From assembly GCA_030730025.1 (NCBI GenBank), contig JANQWC010000004.1, positions 29,179 to 93,178 of the forward strand: a stretch of DNA of 64,000 nt, in the 5' to 3' direction. Below are positions 52,040-64,000 of this stretch, piece by piece. Made by a program: the position numbers and the translations under genes. The notes below the pieces were generated by a model. It saw nothing but the letters and a program-made list of their open reading frames with translations, had not been told where the DNA came from and did not search any database. This DNA comes from Crocinitomicaceae bacterium. Its GTDB lineage: Bacteria; Bacteroidota; Bacteroidia; Flavobacteriales_D; Crocinitomicaceae. Numbering within the stretch: position 1 is the first letter of the stretch; each line of letters begins with the position of its first letter.

Positions 52040-52145
52040 GCAACTTCTTTTTTTTATCCGAACAAAAAATTGTAATTTTCTAAGGTAATTGTTACCCTGG
52101 TGTAACTTTTGCGACCAACAAATTGTTCTACTGCCGGACACAATT
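52040..52145 (+). promoter_or_regulatory. Upstream control region of the ECF sigma operon
   Basis: 106 bases without a gene. A T-run (about 52047-52056) follows the Nudix gene but I see no stable hairpin before it. GTTAC (52091-52095) and GTAAC (52102-52106) form a five-base inverted repeat, and TAACTTTTG (52103-52111) is a -7-like box with one extra base. The GTTAC/TGTAAC blocks resemble AAC-containing ECF -35 elements, so autoregulation by the encoded sigma is possible but not shown. Confidence 0.35.
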
Positions 52146-52637
52146 TTGAACCGCTCTGACTACAATACCTGTGTAGACCTCCACAGCGACGCGCTGTATA
52201 GGTTTTGTTTGCATTTCATGCGAGATGTCGAACCAGCACGCGATACCGTACAAGACTGTTTTGAAAAATTGTGGATCAACAAGGAAAGCGTCACAACAGA
52301 CAAAGCAAAAGCTTGGTTGTTTACTTGTGCAAATCACCTGATGCTCAATCAAGTGAAGCGCAACAAAGTCAAACAACAGCATTTGGACTCGCTCGGATGG
52401 AGCAGCACCAATAGCACAGACAAGCACTTTGAAACCCAACAACTCATCGAATTGTTGGTCAAAGATTTGCCGCCTCTGCAAAAAAGCATCTTGTTGCTCC
52501 GAGACCTCGAAGGCTATACTTACCAAGAAATCGGTTCCATGCTCGACCTGACCGAAGCCCAAGTGAAAGTATACCTTTTTAGAGCGAGGCTCAAAGTCAA
52601 AAAACGCGCTAACGGACAATTTGTATTGGCTTCATGA
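52146..52637 (+). CDS. ECF-type RNA polymerase sigma factor
   Basis: 163 residues from a TTG at 52146. No ATG exists before the conserved region. The frame is open back to another TTG at 52089, but that start lies upstream of the -7-like box and adds residues unlike the family. Region sigma-2 is seen as LHSDALYRFCLHFMRDVEPARDTVQDCFEKLW, with a WLFTCANHLMLNQVKR segment. Region sigma-4 reads LPPLQKSILLLRDLEGYTYQEIGSMLDLTEAQVKVYLFRARLKV. It should redirect RNA polymerase to envelope-related genes. Its stop overlaps the next gene by four bases (ATGA), the usual arrangement of a sigma and its anti-sigma. Confidence 0.9.
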   Translation: MNRSDYNTCVDLHSDALYRFCLHFMRDVEPARDTVQDCFEKLWINKESVTTDKAKAWLFTCANHLMLNQVKRNKVKQQHLDSLGWSSTNSTDKHFETQQLIELLVKDLPPLQKSILLLRDLEGYTYQEIGSMLDLTEAQVKVYLFRARLKVKKRANGQFVLAS

Positions 52638-54265
52638 AACCTACATTAGAAAACATCGATCAATGGCTCTTTGATGCCCTCGAAGGCAACTTAAGCCCCG
52701 CTCAAGAGCAAGTCCTAGACGACTTCATCGCCCAGCACCCGGAGCTCGAGCTCGAACAAGAGGCTTGGTTCAAAACCAACTACGTCGCTTCAGAAATCAC
52801 CTTTGAACCAAAAGCTGCGCTCTATCGCAAAAAGCAATTTGGCTATAAACCTTTTGCAGCAGCAGCTGTCCTGCTCTTGCTACTTGCCGTTGGCTTCTAC
52901 CAAAACCAAGAAGCGCCTTCAAAAGGTACGCTTTCAAAAGCGCCATCAAAAGCGACGCTTTCAAAAGGAATTTCTCAACAGAATACAAACTCTCCATCGA
53001 CAAACTCTCCATCGACAACTACACTTTCATCAACTCCTTCTACTCCACTCGTTTCTTCAAATCCACTCGTTTCTTCAAATCCGGCTACAACCGAAGTTTC
53101 TCTATTTTCAAACACTGTTTCTCTCCCTACAACAACTTCCTCCTCTCCACTCGCTTCTTCAAATCCACTCGTTTCTTCAAAACAAGCTACAAATTTAGCG
53201 ACCCTGAAGCCTCTTGCAGCTGGCCTTATCACAGGCTACCGCACCGATTTGCGTTTTGAAGCCCTCGCTGGCGTACAAAGCGAGCTGGAGCTCAAGAATA
53301 ATTGGCGTTTGCCGGCACTGCAGCGCGCCAGTCAGTTTGCGCAAAAAGAACTGGGTCTTAGCAACAACCAGACTTACGACCTACTGCTTCCGGGCAAGAG
53401 CAACATCGATGCGAACATCAGCAGTGTAGGTACGCTTTCGCAAACGCGCTTTCAGAGCAGCAGTCTGGCGCGCACAGGTACCGCCAGCGAACAAAGCCTC
53501 ATGGGGCAGCAATTTAGCCTCGATGGCTATTCGCGCAGTTTGCGGGCTGGGCTTGGTATTCAGGGCAGCTACAAACAATATGCTGGCGCAGCAGTGTCTG
53601 ACTACGAAATTGGACTCATTGCAGCACCTAAAATTGCACTCAATCGCATGATCATCCTAGAACCCGCTGCGCGCTTGCGCTTGGGGGCGCGTTACGCCGA
53701 TGCGGCCAAACTACAGAGCCTTTCTTTTATCGAATTTGAAAACGCCGACCTCAGAGCCGTTCAGGTTGATACCGCATTATCAGTTGGCCGCCGCCTTTTT
53801 TACAAGGACCTCGACCTCAGCCTAGCCATCCAGACACCTATTTTATTTGTGAGTGCCCAACTCGAAAACGCATTCAGGCATTTTGACTACGCCATGGGCA
53901 ATGAGCAAAATCCGAGCAATAGCAGCGCACCGCAACAACTCACCGTTTCCATCGGCACACAATACGCTTCGCGCAATGAAAAAATGCGCCTCGCGCCTTA
54001 TTTGCAATACCGAAGCAATCGCTTGCAAACGCAATACTTAGCTGGTATCCAACTGAACCTCAACAAATGGCAGCTCGGTGCAAGTGTGGCCAGTAACCAA
54101 CAGTATCAAGCGTCGTTGGGCTATTTGGGCAAACACAGCGCCATCATCCTGCAAAGTTGCCAGCACCAACTTCTGACACTCAACACACCAAGTTATTTTC
54201 ACCAAGTCACGTTCCGCATTTACTCACAACCTAGCCGCAAGGCCCGTCGTTATATCTCTTTGTAA
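52634..54265 (+). CDS. Predicted dual-membrane-spanning anti-sigma factor with C-terminal outer-membrane barrel
   Basis: 543 residues in four parts. Residues 1-60 are a small acidic helical domain like the zinc-less N-termini of Bacteroidota anti-sigma factors (IDQWLFDALEGNLSPAQEQVLDDFI). Residues 71-89 form one membrane helix (FAAAAVLLLLLAVGFY). Residues 90-195 are a Ser/Pro/Thr/Lys low-complexity tether encoded by tandem repeats. Residues about 200-543 look like an outer-membrane barrel with alternating strands (RSLRAGLGIQGSY, LEPAARLRLGARY, LSLAIQTPILFVSAQLENAF, RLAPYLQYRSNR, YFHQVTFRIYSQ). The barrel resembles the PorP/SprF-type barrel of the next gene in layout. With no N-terminal signal, the head should be cytoplasmic. 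This matches the Dma-type anti-sigma factors of Bacteroides. Confidence 0.75.
   Translation: MKPTLENIDQWLFDALEGNLSPAQEQVLDDFIAQHPELELEQEAWFKTNYVASEITFEPKAALYRKKQFGYKPFAAAAVLLLLLAVGFYQNQEAPSKGTLSKAPSKATLSKGISQQNTNSPSTNSPSTTTLSSTPSTPLVSSNPLVSSNPATTEVSLFSNTVSLPTTTSSSPLASSNPLVSSKQATNLATLKPLAAGLITGYRTDLRFEALAGVQSELELKNNWRLPALQRASQFAQKELGLSNNQTYDLLLPGKSNIDANISSVGTLSQTRFQSSSLARTGTASEQSLMGQQFSLDGYSRSLRAGLGIQGSYKQYAGAAVSDYEIGLIAAPKIALNRMIILEPAARLRLGARYADAAKLQSLSFIEFENADLRAVQVDTALSVGRRLFYKDLDLSLAIQTPILFVSAQLENAFRHFDYAMGNEQNPSNSSAPQQLTVSIGTQYASRNEKMRLAPYLQYRSNRLQTQYLAGIQLNLNKWQLGASVASNQQYQASLGYLGKHSAIILQSCQHQLLTLNTPSYFHQVTFRIYSQPSRKARRYISL
52917..53182 (+). repeat. Tandem DNA repeats encoding the periplasmic tether
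   Basis: Within the anti-sigma/barrel gene: degenerate TCAAAAG-containing units (about 52917-52970), a 15-bp unit repeated twice (52985-53014), and an 18-bp unit CCACTCGTTTCTTCAAAT present in two pairs (53045-53080 and 53147-53182), one copy with a single C/T change and the last with a final-base change. Units are multiples of three, so copy-number change keeps the frame. Confidence 0.8.
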
Positions 54266-54267
54266 TT

Positions 54268-55230
54268 ATGAAAAAGTTAAGCTTATCCCTACTCTTCTTG
54301 GTTGCAACCAGCAACTTGCTTGCCCAAGACCCCACCTTTACGCAGTTCTATTCCAACCCGGTCTACCTCAATCCCGCGCTAGCTGGCTCGAGCGGCTGCC
54401 CACGTGTGGCACTCAATTACCGCAACGAATGGCCGCAACTCACGGGTAATTACGTCACGTATGCGGCGGCTTACGACAGCTATTTCAAGAATATTTCTGG
54501 CGGCGTTGGCCTCATTGCCCTACACGATGTGCAAGGCCAAGGAACAATTCAGACATCCATGATTGGCGCTAGCTACTCCAACTACCTGAAAGTCAATCGC
54601 AAATTCAGACTCATGTTTGGAGCGCAAGCTGCCTATTATCAAAAATACCTAGACTGGAGCAAACTCACTTTTGGCGACATGATTGACCCGCGCCGCGGAT
54701 TCATCTACCAAACCGGTGATGTGCCACGTGGCAACGGCCGCCGTGGCTTCTTCGATGTGTCGGCAGGTATTGTGGGCTTCAGCAAGAATTTCTATTTCGG
54801 CGCGGCTTTTCATCACCTCAACAGACCAGACGAATCCATGATCCTCGGCCAATCTAAGCTGCCCATCAAAGTAACAGGGCACATCGGGGCAAACATCAAG
54901 CTCGGGCAGCGCGGTCGCTATTCAAGCACCACATTTTTATCGCCAAATATTATTTACCAGAACCAAAACGGCTTTCAGCAACTTAATGTTGGTGCCTACC
55001 TCAAGTATGAAAGTTTTACCATCGGCGCTTGGTACCGCAACAAAGATGCGTTTATCCTCACCGTCGGCATCAACACAGACAACTACCGAATTGGGTACAG
55101 CTATGACCTCACGGTTTCGCCACTCGGCAATGGGGTAAGCGGCGGTTCTCACGAAGTATCATTGGGCATCAACCTCAAATGCAAAAAACCAGCCCGCGAC
55201 TTCAGACGCATCAGCTGTCCTTCTTTCTAG
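54268..55230 (+). CDS. Type IX secretion system membrane protein PorP/SprF family
   Basis: 320 residues. Signal peptide KLSLSLLFLVATSNLLAQ, then the PorP/SprF hallmark DPTFTQFYSNPVYLNPALAGS (about 21-41) and NYRNEWPQL, with barrel strands to the end. A Cys/Arg-rich tail (KCKKPARDFRRISCPSF) follows the last strand region. These proteins hold T9SS cargo or adhesins at the outer membrane; SprF serves the SprB adhesin in Flavobacterium. It starts two bases after the anti-sigma/barrel gene, so sigma, anti-sigma and PorP form one operon. The giant adhesin encoded 1.8 kb downstream is a candidate client. Confidence 0.92.
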   Translation: MKKLSLSLLFLVATSNLLAQDPTFTQFYSNPVYLNPALAGSSGCPRVALNYRNEWPQLTGNYVTYAAAYDSYFKNISGGVGLIALHDVQGQGTIQTSMIGASYSNYLKVNRKFRLMFGAQAAYYQKYLDWSKLTFGDMIDPRRGFIYQTGDVPRGNGRRGFFDVSAGIVGFSKNFYFGAAFHHLNRPDESMILGQSKLPIKVTGHIGANIKLGQRGRYSSTTFLSPNIIYQNQNGFQQLNVGAYLKYESFTIGAWYRNKDAFILTVGINTDNYRIGYSYDLTVSPLGNGVSGGSHEVSLGINLKCKKPARDFRRISCPSF

Positions 55231-57068: not shown

Positions 57069-60000
57069 TTAGTTTTTAACGATGCGGATCGCTTCGGCTG
57101 CTTCGGCTACTTTTAGGAAGTAGATGCCGCGTGCAACTTGGTCGATGTCGATAGTCGTTGACGTACCATTTAGTGCGCCAGTAGCGACCACCTTACCTTG
57201 CGCATCTTGAATCACGTAGTTGCTGTACAACGCTTCGGACGCTTTCAAAGTGAAGACTGCATCAGTTGGGTTTGGTTGAACTGAGAAGCTAACAACCGTT
57301 TGCTCATCTAGACCAACTGTTAAAGTAAGATTCAATGTAATTGTGGAATCACAACCAGCTGCGTTGGTCAGTGTTTGCGTGTAGGTACCAGATTGGGTGT
57401 ACATGATGTCGTTGAGAATGTAGTCAGCAACACCCGTCGCGTTGATGGTGCTTGTCGTAGGCTGATTCACCTGAACCGCTACAGCATTTGTAGTTACGGA
57501 ACAACCTGCTGGACTGGTAACCGTGGCGCTATAGCTACCGGAAGTTGTTACATTTATTGAGCTGCTTTGCGCCGTGTTAGACCACACATATGTATTACCT
57601 GCAGCTGCACTCAATACTACACTTTCTCCTTCGCAGAAACTCAACGGACCACTTGCCACAATAAAGTTAGCAGGAAGCGCATTGACTGCTACATCAATAG
57701 AAGTGGTATCTGAACAACCGTTGGCAGCAGTAGCCGTAAGCACATAAGTACCGGCTGTGCTTGCGCTCAGCGTTGAGCCAGACTGACCATTTGACCATCC
57801 ATAAGTAGCAGCACCAGATGCTGTTAAAGCCACACTACCACCTTGACAGAAGGTTGTTGGTCCGTTAGCAGTAATTTGCGCTGTAGGTGCTGGTAAAATA
57901 GTGACTGAAACAGGCGCAAGTGTTGTTGTACACCCATTTGAACCCGTGACCGTTACACCATAATTGCCAGTTGTTGTTGGCACTATACTTTGAGAAGTGG
58001 CATTGTTGGTCCAGAGGTAAGTGCCTGTTCCGGAAACAGCTAAAGAAACAAGCTGATTAGAACAACTTGTCGCCGAACCTGTCAGGTTGATACTTGCCAC
58101 CGGCGCACTCAACACATTGACTAAAATCGCATTGGACACTGCTGAACAACCACTCGGACTTGTAATAGTGACCGTATAGGCACCAGAATTACTTGCGGTA
58201 ATGCTTGGTGTGGTTGCACCATTGGACCACAAATAAGTTCCACCTGCATAACTATTCGCATTGAGCGCCACACTTGCGCCCGCACAGAAATTCGTCGGAC
58301 CAGCAGCAGCAATTGTTGCATTTGGAGTAATTCCTGTTCCCAAAGTATATACGGAACTTGCAGAACAGCCATTCGCGTCAACAACCGTTAAAACATAAGT
58401 GCTTGGTTGCTGAACCGTGATGCTATTGCTCTGAGAACCTGTACTCCAGCTGTACGAAGCAGCATTGATCGACGAAGTCAGGCTGACCGACTGACCTGAG
58501 CAAATAGCAGGGGCACTTGCTTGGATGGCCACAGCAGGGGCTGTATTCACCGTAACTTGAACAGGCGAAACTTGATAGCTACATCCAGCGGCATTTGTGA
58601 TGATCGCACCATAAGCACCTGTAGCATTGACCAAGATCTGTGAGCCAGTTTGGTTTGTACTCCATTGATAAGCAAAACCTGCCGGTAAACTCAACTGAAC
58701 AGCTCCACCCGAACAGAACGAGAGTGGCCCATTGGCTACAATCGAAACCGGACTGATGGTGTTGACCACAACTGGTGAAGTTGTTGACACAGCACAACCA
58801 TTGGCATAAGTAACTGTGTATGTCAGGTTTGTAGCACCAGCGCCAAGACCAGTATAGCTACCTGATGTTGGATCAATACCGACCACGCTTGGATTTTGAC
58901 TTGACCAAACACCATTGGCAACCGCATTTGAAAGCTGTGCGCTCGCACCTAAACAAACAGCGGCGGCACCAGTATTTGAACCAAGTGCAGGTGCAGCGAG
59001 CATTTGTACGCTAATTGGTGTGGCACTTGCACTACAAACACCGTTAGAAACTGTTAACCCAACAGTTTGCGTAGTCGCTAAAGTAATGCTTTGCGAAGTA
59101 GCGCCATTAGACCACGCATAACTTGCCGCCGGATCAGCAGTGAGCGTAACGCTAGCACCTTCACAGAAAGTAAGTGCGCCTGAAGAAGAGATATTAATAG
59201 AAGGCAAGGATTGCACGGCAACCTGAATTGGCGTCGAAAGTGCCGAACAACCATTCAAAGAAAGGTTAACGGTGTAAGCTCCTGGCGCTTGAACAGTGAT
59301 ACTTTGAGTAGTGGCGCCATTGCTCCATAAATAGCTAGTAGCAGGCTCAGCTGAAAGCGTAACACTTCCACCCTGACAGAAAGTAGTTGGCCCCGACGCC
59401 ACTACAGTACTCACTGGTAGCGCATTGACCTCAACGAGCGTTGGCACCGAAGTAGCGCTACAGCCGTTTTGAGTGGCTTGTACAGTGTATGAGCCTGCTG
59501 TTTGAACCGAAATACTTTGTGTTGTGGCACCTGTACTCCACAAATAACTACTTGCAGGAGCTGCTGTCAAGACCACATTTGATCCGGCGCAAATGCTTGT
59601 TGAGCCAGATGCGGTTATCGTTGCTGTTGGGGCAGTCAGTGTACTCACGACTACCGGTACAGCACTCGCACTACAACCAGCAGAATTGCTCACACTCAAG
59701 CCGATGCTTGTTGCTGTGGAAACCGTAATACTTTGCGTTGTGGCGCCGTTTGTCCAGAGGTAAGACGAAGCAGCTGGAGCAGTGAGCGTAACGCTCGCGC
59801 CAGAGCAAAGGCTCAAAGAGCCAACAACTTGAATTTGAGGCACCGCAGGTGGTGCTTGAACGCTAACTACCGAGGCTGCGGAAGCGGCCACACATCCATT
59901 TGCGTTGGTTACCTGGACTGCATAATTACCTGCGGTATTGACCACAATACTTTGAGTTGTGGCGCCATTGCTCCAAGAATAAGCTGCAGCCGGCGTTGCT

Positions 60001-63000
60001 GTTAGGGTAACACTTGCGCCCTGGCAGAAGCTCAACGGACCACTTGCCGTGACACTTGCACTTGGAAGGGCCTGTACAACCACAGCTACTGGTGCACTTG
60101 TAGCGGCACAACCGTTGTTGTTCACGTTAACTGAATAATTTCCAGCTGTACTGACAACAATACTTTGCGTGGTAGCACCATTGTTCCAAAGGTAACTTGA
60201 AGCAGTCGCTGCGGTGAGCGTAACTGAACCTCCTTGACAGAAGGTAGTTGTCCCGATTGTAGAAATCGTTGGCGTTGGCAGCGGCGTCACGTTGATGGTC
60301 GTGACGGCAGATGTAGCACTACAACCGTTTTGCGTAGAAAGCACGCTGTAGTTACCCGCGGTATTGACTGTAATACTTGCAGTTGTAGCACCATTTGACC
60401 ACAAATAGGTTGTGGCAGGGCTAGCCGTAAGTACTACATTGCTACCCTGACAAATTGTAGTCGGGCCATTTGCAGCAACCGTTGGGCTTGGCAAAGCGGT
60501 CACGGAAACGGTAATTGGAGCCGAAGTTGCACTACAACCATTTGAATTGACAGCAACGGTATAAGTGCCGGCTGTACTTGCACTAATGCTCTGAGTAGTT
60601 GCACCGTTTGACCACAAGTAAGCTGAACCAGCGCTAGCCGTCAAGGTGACCGCAGCACCCGCACAAATAGTCGTGCTGGCTGCTGGGGTAATTGTAGCCG
60701 TTGGAAGCGCATTGACAGTTACACTTGTATTGGCAGAAGTTGATGTACAACCTTGGTTATTGGTGAGCACCAAAGAGTAGTTTCCGGCAGCACTTGCGGT
60801 GTATGTTGGCGCAGTAGCACCACTAATTGGCGTTCCGTTGAGGCGCCACACATAACTAAATGTGGAGCCAGTAGGCGGCGTTGGTCCGTTTAAGACAACA
60901 GACGAACCAGCACAAAATGTTGTTGAACCGATATTGGTAATGACGGCATTCGGACTTGGCGCCATGGTTACAACTGCTGGCGTGGCACTTGCCGAACATC
61001 CATTAGCAGTTACACTCAAGCCATAAGAACCGGCCGCATTGACCGTAATACTTTGGGTATTGGCACCATTCGACCACAAATAACTAGAAGCTGGGCTTGC
61101 GGTCAAGACCACAGTAGCACCCGCACATAGCGTGGTAGCTCCACTAGCGGCAATCGTTGGTGTAGGCAAAGCATTCACCACAACTGCTAATGGAGCGCTA
61201 GTTGCGCTACAGCCATTGGTCGTGAGTTCAACACTGTAACTTCCCGTAGCATTGGCAACAATACTCTGAGTTGTGGCACCAGTAGACCATAAATATGAAC
61301 CGGCACTTGGGGCCGTAATTGTGACGTTATTTCCTGCACAGAAAGTGGTTGCTCCACTTGTAGTGAGGGCAGTTGAAATGGCAGGCTGCACACTTACAGA
61401 AGTTGCTGTCGAATTACTGTAGCAACCGTTGTTCAAGCTAGAAACTTGATAAGTCCCGGCCTGAGCAACCGTAATACTTTGCGTTGTAGCACCAGTAGAC
61501 CACAAATATGCAGTACCCGGACTTGCCGTCAGCGTGACGCTAGCGCCTGGACATAAAGTTGTCGAACCCGAGGCTGAAATTGAAGTTGGAGTCGTCGACT
61601 GAACCGTCATGGAAAGGGATGCATTCGCTGTACAACCATTTGAAGTGGTGATTTGATAAGAAATGACAACCGATCCAGCAGCAAGCCCTGAAACCAAACC
61701 ACTTAAAGGGTTAACCGTTGCTTTACTGATATCAGAACTAGACCATAGACCATTGGTTGTGGCATTGCTCAATTGGGTACTCGCGTTGACACAAACACTG
61801 CTCGAACCACTGATTGCAGCAATGGTTGGCTGCGCCAGAACTTGTACGCTTACTTGCTGCGCGCTCGCGCTACAGCCATTTGCAGCTGTCATGGTGAGGC
61901 CGTAGTTTCCAGCTGTACTGACAACTATACTTTGGGTTGTAGCCCCAGTAGACCAAAGATAACTTGTGGCGGATGGCGCACTCAGCTCAACCGAACCACC
62001 CTGACAAAATGCGGTAGATCCAGACGCACTGATTGTCGTCAAAGGAGCCGCTAAAATGGTGATCGGATAATCTACTGTAGCCGTACAGCCGTTGAGGTTG
62101 GTATACGTATAGCTGATGGTTGAAGAACCCGCAGCAAGGCCCGTTACCAACCCGTTGATATGTCCAACAGTAGCAGTATTCAAGTTTGATGAGCTGTAAA
62201 CTCCACCAGACATCGGAATACTCAATTGGATTTGACCATTGCTACAAACCGTACTCGGACCACTTATCTGACTCATGGTCGGTAAAGGATTCACCACCGT
62301 TTGAATGCTGGCTGCTGCACTCGTACAGCCAAAGCCATTGGTAATTTGAACACTGTAGGTTCCTGCACTCTGAGTACTGATGCTCGAAGTAGTGGCTCCT
62401 GTTGACCACAAATAGGACAAGCCAGCACCTGTATTTGCTTGTAAAGTCACTGCTGCGCCTTGACAAAATGCCGTTGGGCCACTCGCCGTTATTTGCGCCT
62501 GTGGCGTCGGATGGTATGCTACAAAAACTGGTGTCGAACTCGCACTACAGCTTCCCGAACCCACGCTAACCGAGTAAGAACCTGCGGCAGAAACATCGAT
62601 ACTTTGGGTTGTTTCACCTGTACTCCACAAATAGCTAGTAGCCGGCGAAGCTGTTAAGGTAAGGTTTGAACCTGGGCAGATGGTTGTGGAACCATTGGTA
62701 GAGATCGTTGCAACTGGTACTTGGATAACACTTACAACAATTGGATCCGATGTTACGGTACAACCGTTTGAACCGGTAAGGGCAACTGTAAAGGTTCCAG
62801 CCGAACTAACGTTTATACTCGGCGTTGTCTGGCCATTGCTCCACGTATAAGCAACAGCGCTTCCTGTTGTGATGTTGATACTTGCACCGGCACAAATAGC
62901 GATGTTGTTGCCAGGGTAAATGGTGGCATTTGGAACAGGGTTGACATTGATTTGAACACTGTTTGAATTCGCACTACATCCATTTACTGTTGTGATGGCA

Positions 63001-64000
63001 ACTTGATACGTACCTGCTGCATTCACAACTATACTTTGGGTTGTTTGTCCTGAACTCCACAAATAACTAGCGCCCGCACTGGCCACAAGGGTGATGGAGT
63101 CTCCCTGACAAAATGTTGTTGAACCGTTCTGTGTGACTTGTGCATTTGGCAGCGCATTGACCGCAATTACTTGGCTAGCCGTACCTGGATTTGCGTTCAA
63201 ACAACCCGGCATATTGGCAACATGATACGTAAGTGTTGCACTTCCTGGGCTCACAGGCGTAGCCAATCCGGTTAGCGGATTCACAGCCAAAACAGCTGGA
63301 TTACTCGAAGACCAAAGGCCGTTTGGCGTCGCATTAAGGTATTGTTGGGCAGCGCCCATACAGAGCCCAGAAACACCTGAAATAGAAGCAATTGTTGGTG
63401 CAGGAATAACAGTAATTGTGACCGCATTAGAATTGGAGCTACAACCATTGGCACCAGTGATGATCACACTGTATGTTCCTGAAGATGTTACCGAAAGGGT
63501 TTGTGTCGTGACATTATTTGACCAAAGGTAACTCGAAGCTGTTGAAGCTTGTAAACTCACGCTTTCGCCAGCACATATTTGAGTAGCTGGTGGTATTAAA
63601 ATTTGGTTAGATGGTAGCGCCTTGATTTGCAATACCTTTGTAGCGGCATTGACACAACCAAAACTATTGGTAACGGTATAAGTAATGACTACACTACCAG
63701 CAGAAATAGCGTTCACCACGCCGGTTTGTGCATCAATAGTAGCTAAATTCGGGTTGGATGAAGTCCAAACGCCACCAGAAATATTATTGGAAAGCGTAAT
63801 GGAAGAACCAACGCAAACACCGTTGTTACCCCCTGCTATCAACCCAGGATTTGGAATCGGATTGATCACGACAGCCGCAGCGGTTTCAGTACCCCAACAC
63901 ACCCCTTCGCGGGCTCTAAAATAATAGGTACCCGAAGTGGTAATACTTTCAGAAGTAGATGGTGTAGTGATACTTGTGCCATTTGAGGTTGTTCCTTGGA
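57069..64000 (-). CDS. Giant Ig-like-repeat surface protein with T9SS sorting domain (partial, 5' end beyond window)
   Basis: More than 2300 residues; the frame stays open through the window end (codons before 63902 encode ...TTSGTYYFRAREGVCWGTE), so the N-terminus is missing. By eye there are 24 modules of about 75-80 residues. Each has a SYLWSNGATTQSI-like strand, a following AGTYxVxVT strand, and two conserved Cys (FCxGxSV and NGCSA) that could form a disulfide. Interspersed are five Big_2-like modules (LWSSSNPAxxxVNPLTGLxxGLxxGSxxISY). The last 75 residues are a T9SS type A sorting domain (FSVQPNPTDAVFTL, VIQDAQGKVVATG, GIYFLKV). Likely a cell-surface adhesin or stalk. Confidence 0.92.
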   Translation of the reverse strand, partial: QGTTSNGTSITTPSTSESITTSGTYYFRAREGVCWGTETAAAVVINPIPNPGLIAGGNNGVCVGSSITLSNNISGGVWTSSNPNLATIDAQTGVVNAISAGSVVITYTVTNSFGCVNAATKVLQIKALPSNQILIPPATQICAGESVSLQASTASSYLWSNNVTTQTLSVTSSGTYSVIITGANGCSSNSNAVTITVIPAPTIASISGVSGLCMGAAQQYLNATPNGLWSSSNPAVLAVNPLTGLATPVSPGSATLTYHVANMPGCLNANPGTASQVIAVNALPNAQVTQNGSTTFCQGDSITLVASAGASYLWSSGQTTQSIVVNAAGTYQVAITTVNGCSANSNSVQINVNPVPNATIYPGNNIAICAGASINITTGSAVAYTWSNGQTTPSINVSSAGTFTVALTGSNGCTVTSDPIVVSVIQVPVATISTNGSTTICPGSNLTLTASPATSYLWSTGETTQSIDVSAAGSYSVSVGSGSCSASSTPVFVAYHPTPQAQITASGPTAFCQGAAVTLQANTGAGLSYLWSTGATTSSISTQSAGTYSVQITNGFGCTSAAASIQTVVNPLPTMSQISGPSTVCSNGQIQLSIPMSGGVYSSSNLNTATVGHINGLVTGLAAGSSTISYTYTNLNGCTATVDYPITILAAPLTTISASGSTAFCQGGSVELSAPSATSYLWSTGATTQSIVVSTAGNYGLTMTAANGCSASAQQVSVQVLAQPTIAAISGSSSVCVNASTQLSNATTNGLWSSSDISKATVNPLSGLVSGLAAGSVVISYQITTSNGCTANASLSMTVQSTTPTSISASGSTTLCPGASVTLTASPGTAYLWSTGATTQSITVAQAGTYQVSSLNNGCYSNSTATSVSVQPAISTALTTSGATTFCAGNNVTITAPSAGSYLWSTGATTQSIVANATGSYSVELTTNGCSATSAPLAVVVNALPTPTIAASGATTLCAGATVVLTASPASSYLWSNGANTQSITVNAAGSYGLSVTANGCSASATPAVVTMAPSPNAVITNIGSTTFCAGSSVVLNGPTPPTGSTFSYVWRLNGTPISGATAPTYTASAAGNYSLVLTNNQGCTSTSANTSVTVNALPTATITPAASTTICAGAAVTLTASAGSAYLWSNGATTQSISASTAGTYTVAVNSNGCSATSAPITVSVTALPSPTVAANGPTTICQGSNVVLTASPATTYLWSNGATTASITVNTAGNYSVLSTQNGCSATSAVTTINVTPLPTPTISTIGTTTFCQGGSVTLTAATASSYLWNNGATTQSIVVSTAGNYSVNVNNNGCAATSAPVAVVVQALPSASVTASGPLSFCQGASVTLTATPAAAYSWSNGATTQSIVVNTAGNYAVQVTNANGCVAASAASVVSVQAPPAVPQIQVVGSLSLCSGASVTLTAPAASSYLWTNGATTQSITVSTATSIGLSVSNSAGCSASAVPVVVSTLTAPTATITASGSTSICAGSNVVLTAAPASSYLWSTGATTQSISVQTAGSYTVQATQNGCSATSVPTLVEVNALPVSTVVASGPTTFCQGGSVTLSAEPATSYLWSNGATTQSITVQAPGAYTVNLSLNGCSALSTPIQVAVQSLPSINISSSGALTFCEGASVTLTADPAASYAWSNGATSQSITLATTQTVGLTVSNGVCSASATPISVQMLAAPALGSNTGAAAVCLGASAQLSNAVANGVWSSQNPSVVGIDPTSGSYTGLGAGATNLTYTVTYANGCAVSTTSPVVVNTISPVSIVANGPLSFCSGGAVQLSLPAGFAYQWSTNQTGSQILVNATGAYGAIITNAAGCSYQVSPVQVTVNTAPAVAIQASAPAICSGQSVSLTSSINAASYSWSTGSQSNSITVQQPSTYVLTVVDANGCSASSVYTLGTGITPNATIAAAGPTNFCAGASVALNANSYAGGTYLWSNGATTPSITASNSGAYTVTITSPSGCSAVSNAILVNVLSAPVASINLTGSATSCSNQLVSLAVSGTGTYLWTNNATSQSIVPTTTGNYGVTVTGSNGCTTTLAPVSVTILPAPTAQITANGPTTFCQGGSVALTASGAATYGWSNGQSGSTLSASTAGTYVLTATAANGCSDTTSIDVAVNALPANFIVASGPLSFCEGESVVLSAAAGNTYVWSNTAQSSSINVTTSGSYSATVTSPAGCSVTTNAVAVQVNQPTTSTINATGVADYILNDIMYTQSGTYTQTLTNAAGCDSTITLNLTLTVGLDEQTVVSFSVQPNPTDAVFTLKASEALYSNYVIQDAQGKVVATGALNGTSTTIDIDQVARGIYFLKVAEAAEAIRIVKN

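Follow-up and report, generated by a model that had tools for sequence, protein, structure and literature searches.

What do short in-frame tandem repeats do in a gene whose product appears to join an anti-sigma head to a beta-barrel, and do they change the length of the tether between the two? The question is raised by a gene cluster in the genome of a Crocinitomicaceae bacterium (assembly GCA_030730025.1, 1.78 Mb in 28 contigs and 81% complete); among named relatives, MAGs that carry the labels Crocinitomicaceae and Flavobacteriales come nearest to it. The whole stretch of DNA that was analysed, called the window here, covers 64,000 nucleotides of contig JANQWC010000004.1, and positions are counted from its first letter. 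Three adjoining genes make up the cluster:

52146..52637, plus strand: ECF sigma factor gene with Sigma70_r2 and r4 matches; its start codon is uncertain, the open reading frame opening at 52089
52634..54265, plus strand: open reading frame of 543 aa for a putative Dma-like anti-sigma/PorP-like barrel protein (AF2 model; 87 distinct homologs)
54268..55230, plus strand: separate PorP/SprF gene belonging to this cluster (PF11751, E 1.3e-57)

The sigma gene, whose best NCBIfam model (NF058625, 117.7 bits) stays under the cut-off of 130, has a stop codon that overlaps the start codon of the 543-aa gene. The gene order sigma factor, anti-sigma/barrel protein, PorP is conserved: among 76 loci examined, a sigma homolog lies directly upstream in all 74 that are testable (at least 520 bp upstream) and a PorP homolog directly downstream in all 53 that are testable on the other side (at least 1000 bp downstream).

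In the available part of the published account, Dma2 is described as having an anti-sigma domain, a transmembrane helix, a long disordered tether-like region and a C-terminal beta-barrel, and Dma proteins as holding back their cognate sigma factor (PMC13088901). The same succession of parts is predicted for the window protein by an AF2 run on an alignment of 70 sequences (mean pLDDT 73.7, pTM 0.58):

52634..52849, plus strand: N-terminal helical head, aa 1-72, presumed to bind the sigma factor (pLDDT of about 90 for helices 8-47)
52847..52903, plus strand: predicted inner-membrane helix, aa 72-90, with basic residues before it (AF2; mean hydropathy 2.28)
52919..53305, plus strand: predicted disordered tether, aa 96-224 (almost all residues under pLDDT 50)
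53234..53344, plus strand: GYR motif and the 37 residues that follow it up to the conserved K238 (22 of 75 full-length homologs carry GY[RQ] at a distance of 37-39 aa ahead of the barrel)
53360..54253, plus strand: predicted C-terminal PorP/SprF-like beta-barrel, about aa 243-540, with strands over aa 272-530 (AF2, hhalign to the PorPs of the cluster, VIA)

Helices in the head are modelled at residues 8-17, 22-34 and 36-47. A Foldseek search of the head against 350,542 PDB chains returned three matches at E<=10, all of them anti-sigma proteins (RsiW twice and ChrR) and none significant (E 1.4-9.7), and the best of six chains compared by VIA was 5wuq_C (Z 5.8, 66 aligned residues, rmsd 3.5); no anti-sigma chain matched the head profile in hmmsearch. 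From these non-significant fold matches, the gene order and the analogy with Dma proteins we infer that the head has an anti-sigma role. The single transmembrane helix after the head and the long disordered tether are both Dma traits that are present by prediction, although the tether region aligns poorly, so that low pLDDT is weak evidence of disorder there. An earlier note on this DNA had placed a disordered tether of about 105 residues between head and barrel; the placement agrees with the predicted helix, strands and pLDDT, whereas the length was put too low, since the predicted stretch takes in nearly all of aa 96-224 and 148 residues separate the end of the helix from K238. Where the spacing between GY[RQ] and the barrel is fixed, length changes fall between the inner membrane and the motif, which is a possible docking or cleavage site within an otherwise disordered tether.

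The C-terminal barrel, the remaining Dma trait, is likewise present by prediction, its model scoring Z of about 22 against known barrels. The best VIA match is 8gl6_F from a T9SS complex (Z 22.5, 253 aligned residues, rmsd 3.1), with FadL-type barrels and 6h3i_F from the T9SS translocon within 1 Z of it; the two T9SS chains we take to be PorV. An hhalign comparison of 75 barrels with 53 downstream PorPs gave 99.2% probability (E 5.9e-20, 289 columns, 15% identity), running from about residue 243 of the barrel protein and from PorP residue 17 or 18, which would place the start of the alignment near the end of the PorP signal peptide region. The PF11751 model picks out 40 of the 70 sequences in the alignment at E<=0.1 (best 2e-29), and TIGR03519 picks out 35 of the 70 (best 6.9e-30); the window protein itself has no match to any Pfam family at E<=1, and neither of these two models matches it. 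Judged by these alignments the barrel is PorP-like by homology, and we do not claim the window protein as a strict PF11751 member.

The repeats encode part of the predicted disordered stretch (about aa 96-224) between the predicted membrane helix and the barrel. TRF finds four in-frame arrays within 52911-53181, all inside the 543-aa reading frame; they are given here with their difference from G011, the nearest relative found:

52911..52967, plus strand: array of 27 bp x 2.1, 90% match; length unchanged in G011
52985..53018, plus strand: array of 15 bp x 2.3, 100% match; 30 bp (two units) longer in G011
53044..53082, plus strand: array of 18 bp x 2.2, 100% match; 18 bp longer in G011
53146..53181, plus strand: array of 18 bp x 2.0, 94% match; 18 bp shorter in G011

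All four main periods (27, 15, 18 and 18 bp) are divisible by three, which confirms what the earlier note had said of the unit lengths. Its description of the copies as near-identical does not suit all of them (90-100% match), and the first array has an overlapping and degenerate reading at 52911-52967 as 15 bp x 4.0 (73% match, 15% indels). The units of the two 18-bp arrays are near-equal, their consensus differing at one base, and the clean arrays hold 2.0-2.3 copies each. Biased composition alone does not account for the arrays: the summed TRF score of the window tether is 304, whereas 500 codon-preserving shuffles of it averaged 4.3 and peaked at 72, with 0 of 500 reaching 304.

Three of the four arrays thus differ by whole units between the window and G011 (barrel identity 86%). 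Identical copy number in close relatives, named by the earlier note as a finding that would speak against its claim, was not seen in G011, the only relative sharing these arrays; a DNA search of 40 genomes with the window tether returned just three of them, namely its own genome, G011 and G006, the last with a single 29-base match. Elsewhere in the family, L104 and L114 (barrel 98% identical) differ by 42 bp in a 6-bp GAGAAT array in which some units are degenerate. L043 is longer than L004 by 48 + 12 bp at an 18-bp array, the first 83 barrel residues of the two being 96% identical; two full units lie inside the 48 bp, and the difference is consistent with array growth, although 48 bp is not a whole number of 18-bp units. 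These pairs, like that with G011, were chosen for having arrays and so show that arrays change, not how often, and the copy-number comparisons are between species, with one genome per species. The repeats in the tether and their change between species are real. In L008, oriented positions 1164-1245 are a run of 82 N within an ACA/AAC triplet repeat of the tether, probably an assembly gap at the repeat.

Nearly all length variation among the relatives falls in the tether. In the full-length set (n=75; 12 of the 87 distinct homologs were left out as cut at a contig end, headless or holding X) tethers measure 174 +/- 26 aa with a range of 125-263, barrels 304.7 +/- 2.4 aa with a range of 300-321 and heads 72.9 +/- 2.8 aa. 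The 121 close pairs together show 486 tether, 59 head and 11 barrel gaps, but genes recur among these pairs, which are therefore not independent; a recount over 25 non-overlapping close pairs puts 77 gaps in tethers, 10 in heads and 1 in barrels. Tether length changed in 19 of the 25 pairs and is equal in six, some of them at 60-70% tether identity, a hint that length is constrained to some degree and does not drift freely. The tethers of L015, L073 and L094 are all exactly 156 aa long and align gap-free at only 60-85% identity, which hints that length is constrained and sequence is not.

How much of this variation is due to repeats is another matter. Counting arrays with a TRF score of 40 or more, the 75 genes hold 18 in their tethers, all in 11 genes, against one in heads and one in barrels; the period is divisible by three in 17 of the 18, and arrays also occur in some of the left-out homologs (L008, L027, L043 and L109, among 12 scanned). 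The remaining 64 of the 75 tethers are without a detectable array, so that in most tethers length changed with no recognisable array. The idea that repeats set tether length throughout the family is therefore rejected, and the repeat claim fits the sub-lineage of the window. Arrays are indeed commoner in the window's clade (5/8 vs 6/67; Fisher p 0.0012), a clade picked after seeing the data. As to the reach of the family, a phylum sample of 296 genomes, few of them of this family, gave a match in the own genome alone at E<=1e-30; in an order sample 32 of 120 genomes matched at E<=1e-25, in families labelled f1, f3, f10, f11 and f13 and with some rows partial; a family sample yielded matches in 147 of its 150 genomes at E<=0.001, many among the matches listed being barrel-only, that is, PorP-like.

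The explanation that we hold to be probable is that the repeats form part of a disordered periplasmic tether in a Dma-like trans-envelope anti-sigma protein, and that units are gained and lost in a sub-lineage while tether length drifts over species time. The N-terminal helical head, anchored at the inner membrane, would hold the ECF sigma factor encoded upstream, and some 130-150 flexible residues would tie it to the PorP/SprF-like barrel, which we infer to sit in the outer membrane. Within the sub-lineage short in-frame units would come and go in the tether because duplication of a whole unit is tolerated in a disordered linker but not in head or barrel; tether length would drift within wide bounds (125-263 aa) over species time rather than act as a fast switch. 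The likeliest working model is that the barrel reads the state of the outer membrane or of the T9SS and that the head then releases the sigma factor.

Other readings give the length changes a purpose or a faster tempo. Selection might act through the gain and loss of repeats to adjust the signalling threshold to each species' envelope, tether length fixing the reach or resting tension between barrel and head; the earlier note, too, had supposed that tether length would tune distance or tension if the protein spans the periplasm. That the tether alone varies much in length, and that 6 of 25 close pairs keep the same tether length although their sequences differ, would suit such tuning, as would a worm-like-chain estimate of about 16, 11 and 5 pN for 125, 148 and 263 residues, by which the observed length differences could matter mechanically; yet the estimate depends on constants that were assumed (a persistence length of 0.4 nm and 0.36 nm per residue) and on an assumed span of 25 nm, and length changes freely in 19 of the 25 pairs, as neutral linker drift predicts, so that we regard adaptive tuning as unlikely. 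Far less probable still is a phase-variable contingency locus, at which tether length would be switched within a population by slipped-strand changes. In its favour, the arrays are in frame with copies up to 100% identical, and the N run in L008 falls inside a triplet repeat, but clean window arrays of 2.0-2.3 copies and the presence of arrays in 11 of 75 tethers only speak against it, and as a main reading it is not supported. Length change by slippage without a broken frame, as put forward by the earlier note, thus agrees with the in-frame arrays and whole-unit differences; it is not general, however, and with about two copies per array fast switching is doubtful.

It is also conceivable, though we consider it improbable, that the stretch is shaped by a nucleotide-level element (regulatory, RNA or an overlapping reading) or by recent recombination rather than by tether length. 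Between the window and G011, 12 of 87 four-fold sites differ in the tether, as against 16 of 35 in the head and 53 of 117 in the barrel; the earlier note had counted strong codon-level conservation, together with identical copy number, against its claim, and this unusually low divergence leans that way. Of the 25 non-overlapping pairs, 18 have a lower rate of four-fold differences in the tether than in the barrel (sign test p 0.043; totals of 273/902 for tethers and 1091/2582 for barrels), the tether rate being lowest of all in the window/G011 pair, and G makes up 10% of the bases here. Against a nucleotide-level element, the tether rate exceeds that of the barrel in the other 7 pairs, alignment of repeats tends to pair like copies, and codon usage in the tether is different; the sigma gene is low too (4/56, four other neighbouring genes ranging from 26/99 to 54/142), which fits patchy recombination. 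The troughs in synonymous divergence from G011 lie at 52146-52637, the sigma gene, and at 52919-53230, in the tether. Patchy recombination, codon choice, repeat alignment and nucleotide-level constraint could each contribute to this dip, and the trough against G011 is explained by none of the proposed readings.

The own genome (G000) holds 6 PorP_SprF matches and 20 type B CTD (TIGR04131) matches, 16 of them over the cut-off. By coordinates three of the six PorPs (C3, C5 and C7) adjoin a type B CTD match and C4, the PorP of the sigma/barrel cluster, does not, so that C4 could be an orphan shuttle; from the numbers of the two kinds of match, an orphan shuttle may serve more than one cargo protein, perhaps several. 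Also in the window, on the minus strand at 57069-63902, is an open reading frame of 2277 aa with repeated Ser/Thr-rich units and a terminal T9SS type A sorting domain (TIGR04183, 36.5 bits). We speculate that a T9SS shuttle-type barrel swapped its signal peptide for an anti-sigma head, a membrane helix and a tether, that the single chain reports type B cargo loading or the state of the neighbouring PorP to the ECF sigma factor, and that tandem duplication within the tether sets reach and resting tension; this fuller scenario is possible, and on balance we doubt it.

Several known systems share features with the window protein. In TonB-dependent transducer signalling an outer-membrane barrel informs an ECF sigma factor via an inner-membrane anti-sigma protein; the path from barrel to ECF sigma factor would be alike, but there it runs through two separate proteins and here through one chain. 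In-frame tandem-repeat variation in linkers changes length by whole units without a frameshift; unlike such known cases, the window arrays have few copies and their change is seen between species only. Phase-variable contingency loci carry many pure tandem copies, unlike the clean arrays of the window.

The closest likeness is to the Dma anti-sigma factors, as far as the available part of their description goes: a four-part anatomy, predicted for the window protein and with a head presumed to be an anti-sigma domain, and a neighbouring ECF sigma gene are shared, the likeness being one of described anatomy, and the Dma partners are described there as ECF21-group, the sigma factor adjoining the 543-aa gene being of ECF type (PMC13088901). 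What sets the window protein apart from that description is its PorP/SprF-like barrel, the PorP gene that follows and a tether with tandem arrays; PorV, SprF, FadL, T9SS and tether length are unnamed in the available Dma account. The PorP-like proteins themselves are described, in the parts of the papers available, as FadL-family barrels of 14 strands to which type B CTD proteins bind (PMC9143113, PMC12618676). The window barrel resembles these T9SS PorP/SprF shuttle proteins in its homologous FadL-type fold and differs from them in that a membrane helix and tether replace the cleaved signal peptide and in that it has no PF11751 score. A literature search at the level of titles and abstract openings found no description of an anti-sigma/PorP fusion or of repeat variation in a Dma tether. 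The Dma-like anatomy is known in outline; what looks new is the PorP-like barrel with its fixed gene order, along with a tether that is the one part to vary freely. With 75 homologs of near-fixed head and barrel and tethers of 125-263 aa, together with species that differ by repeat units, the role of tether length becomes directly testable, and a PorP/SprF-like barrel with a PorP gene next to it makes T9SS cargo or shuttle state a concrete candidate for the input to such a trans-envelope protein.
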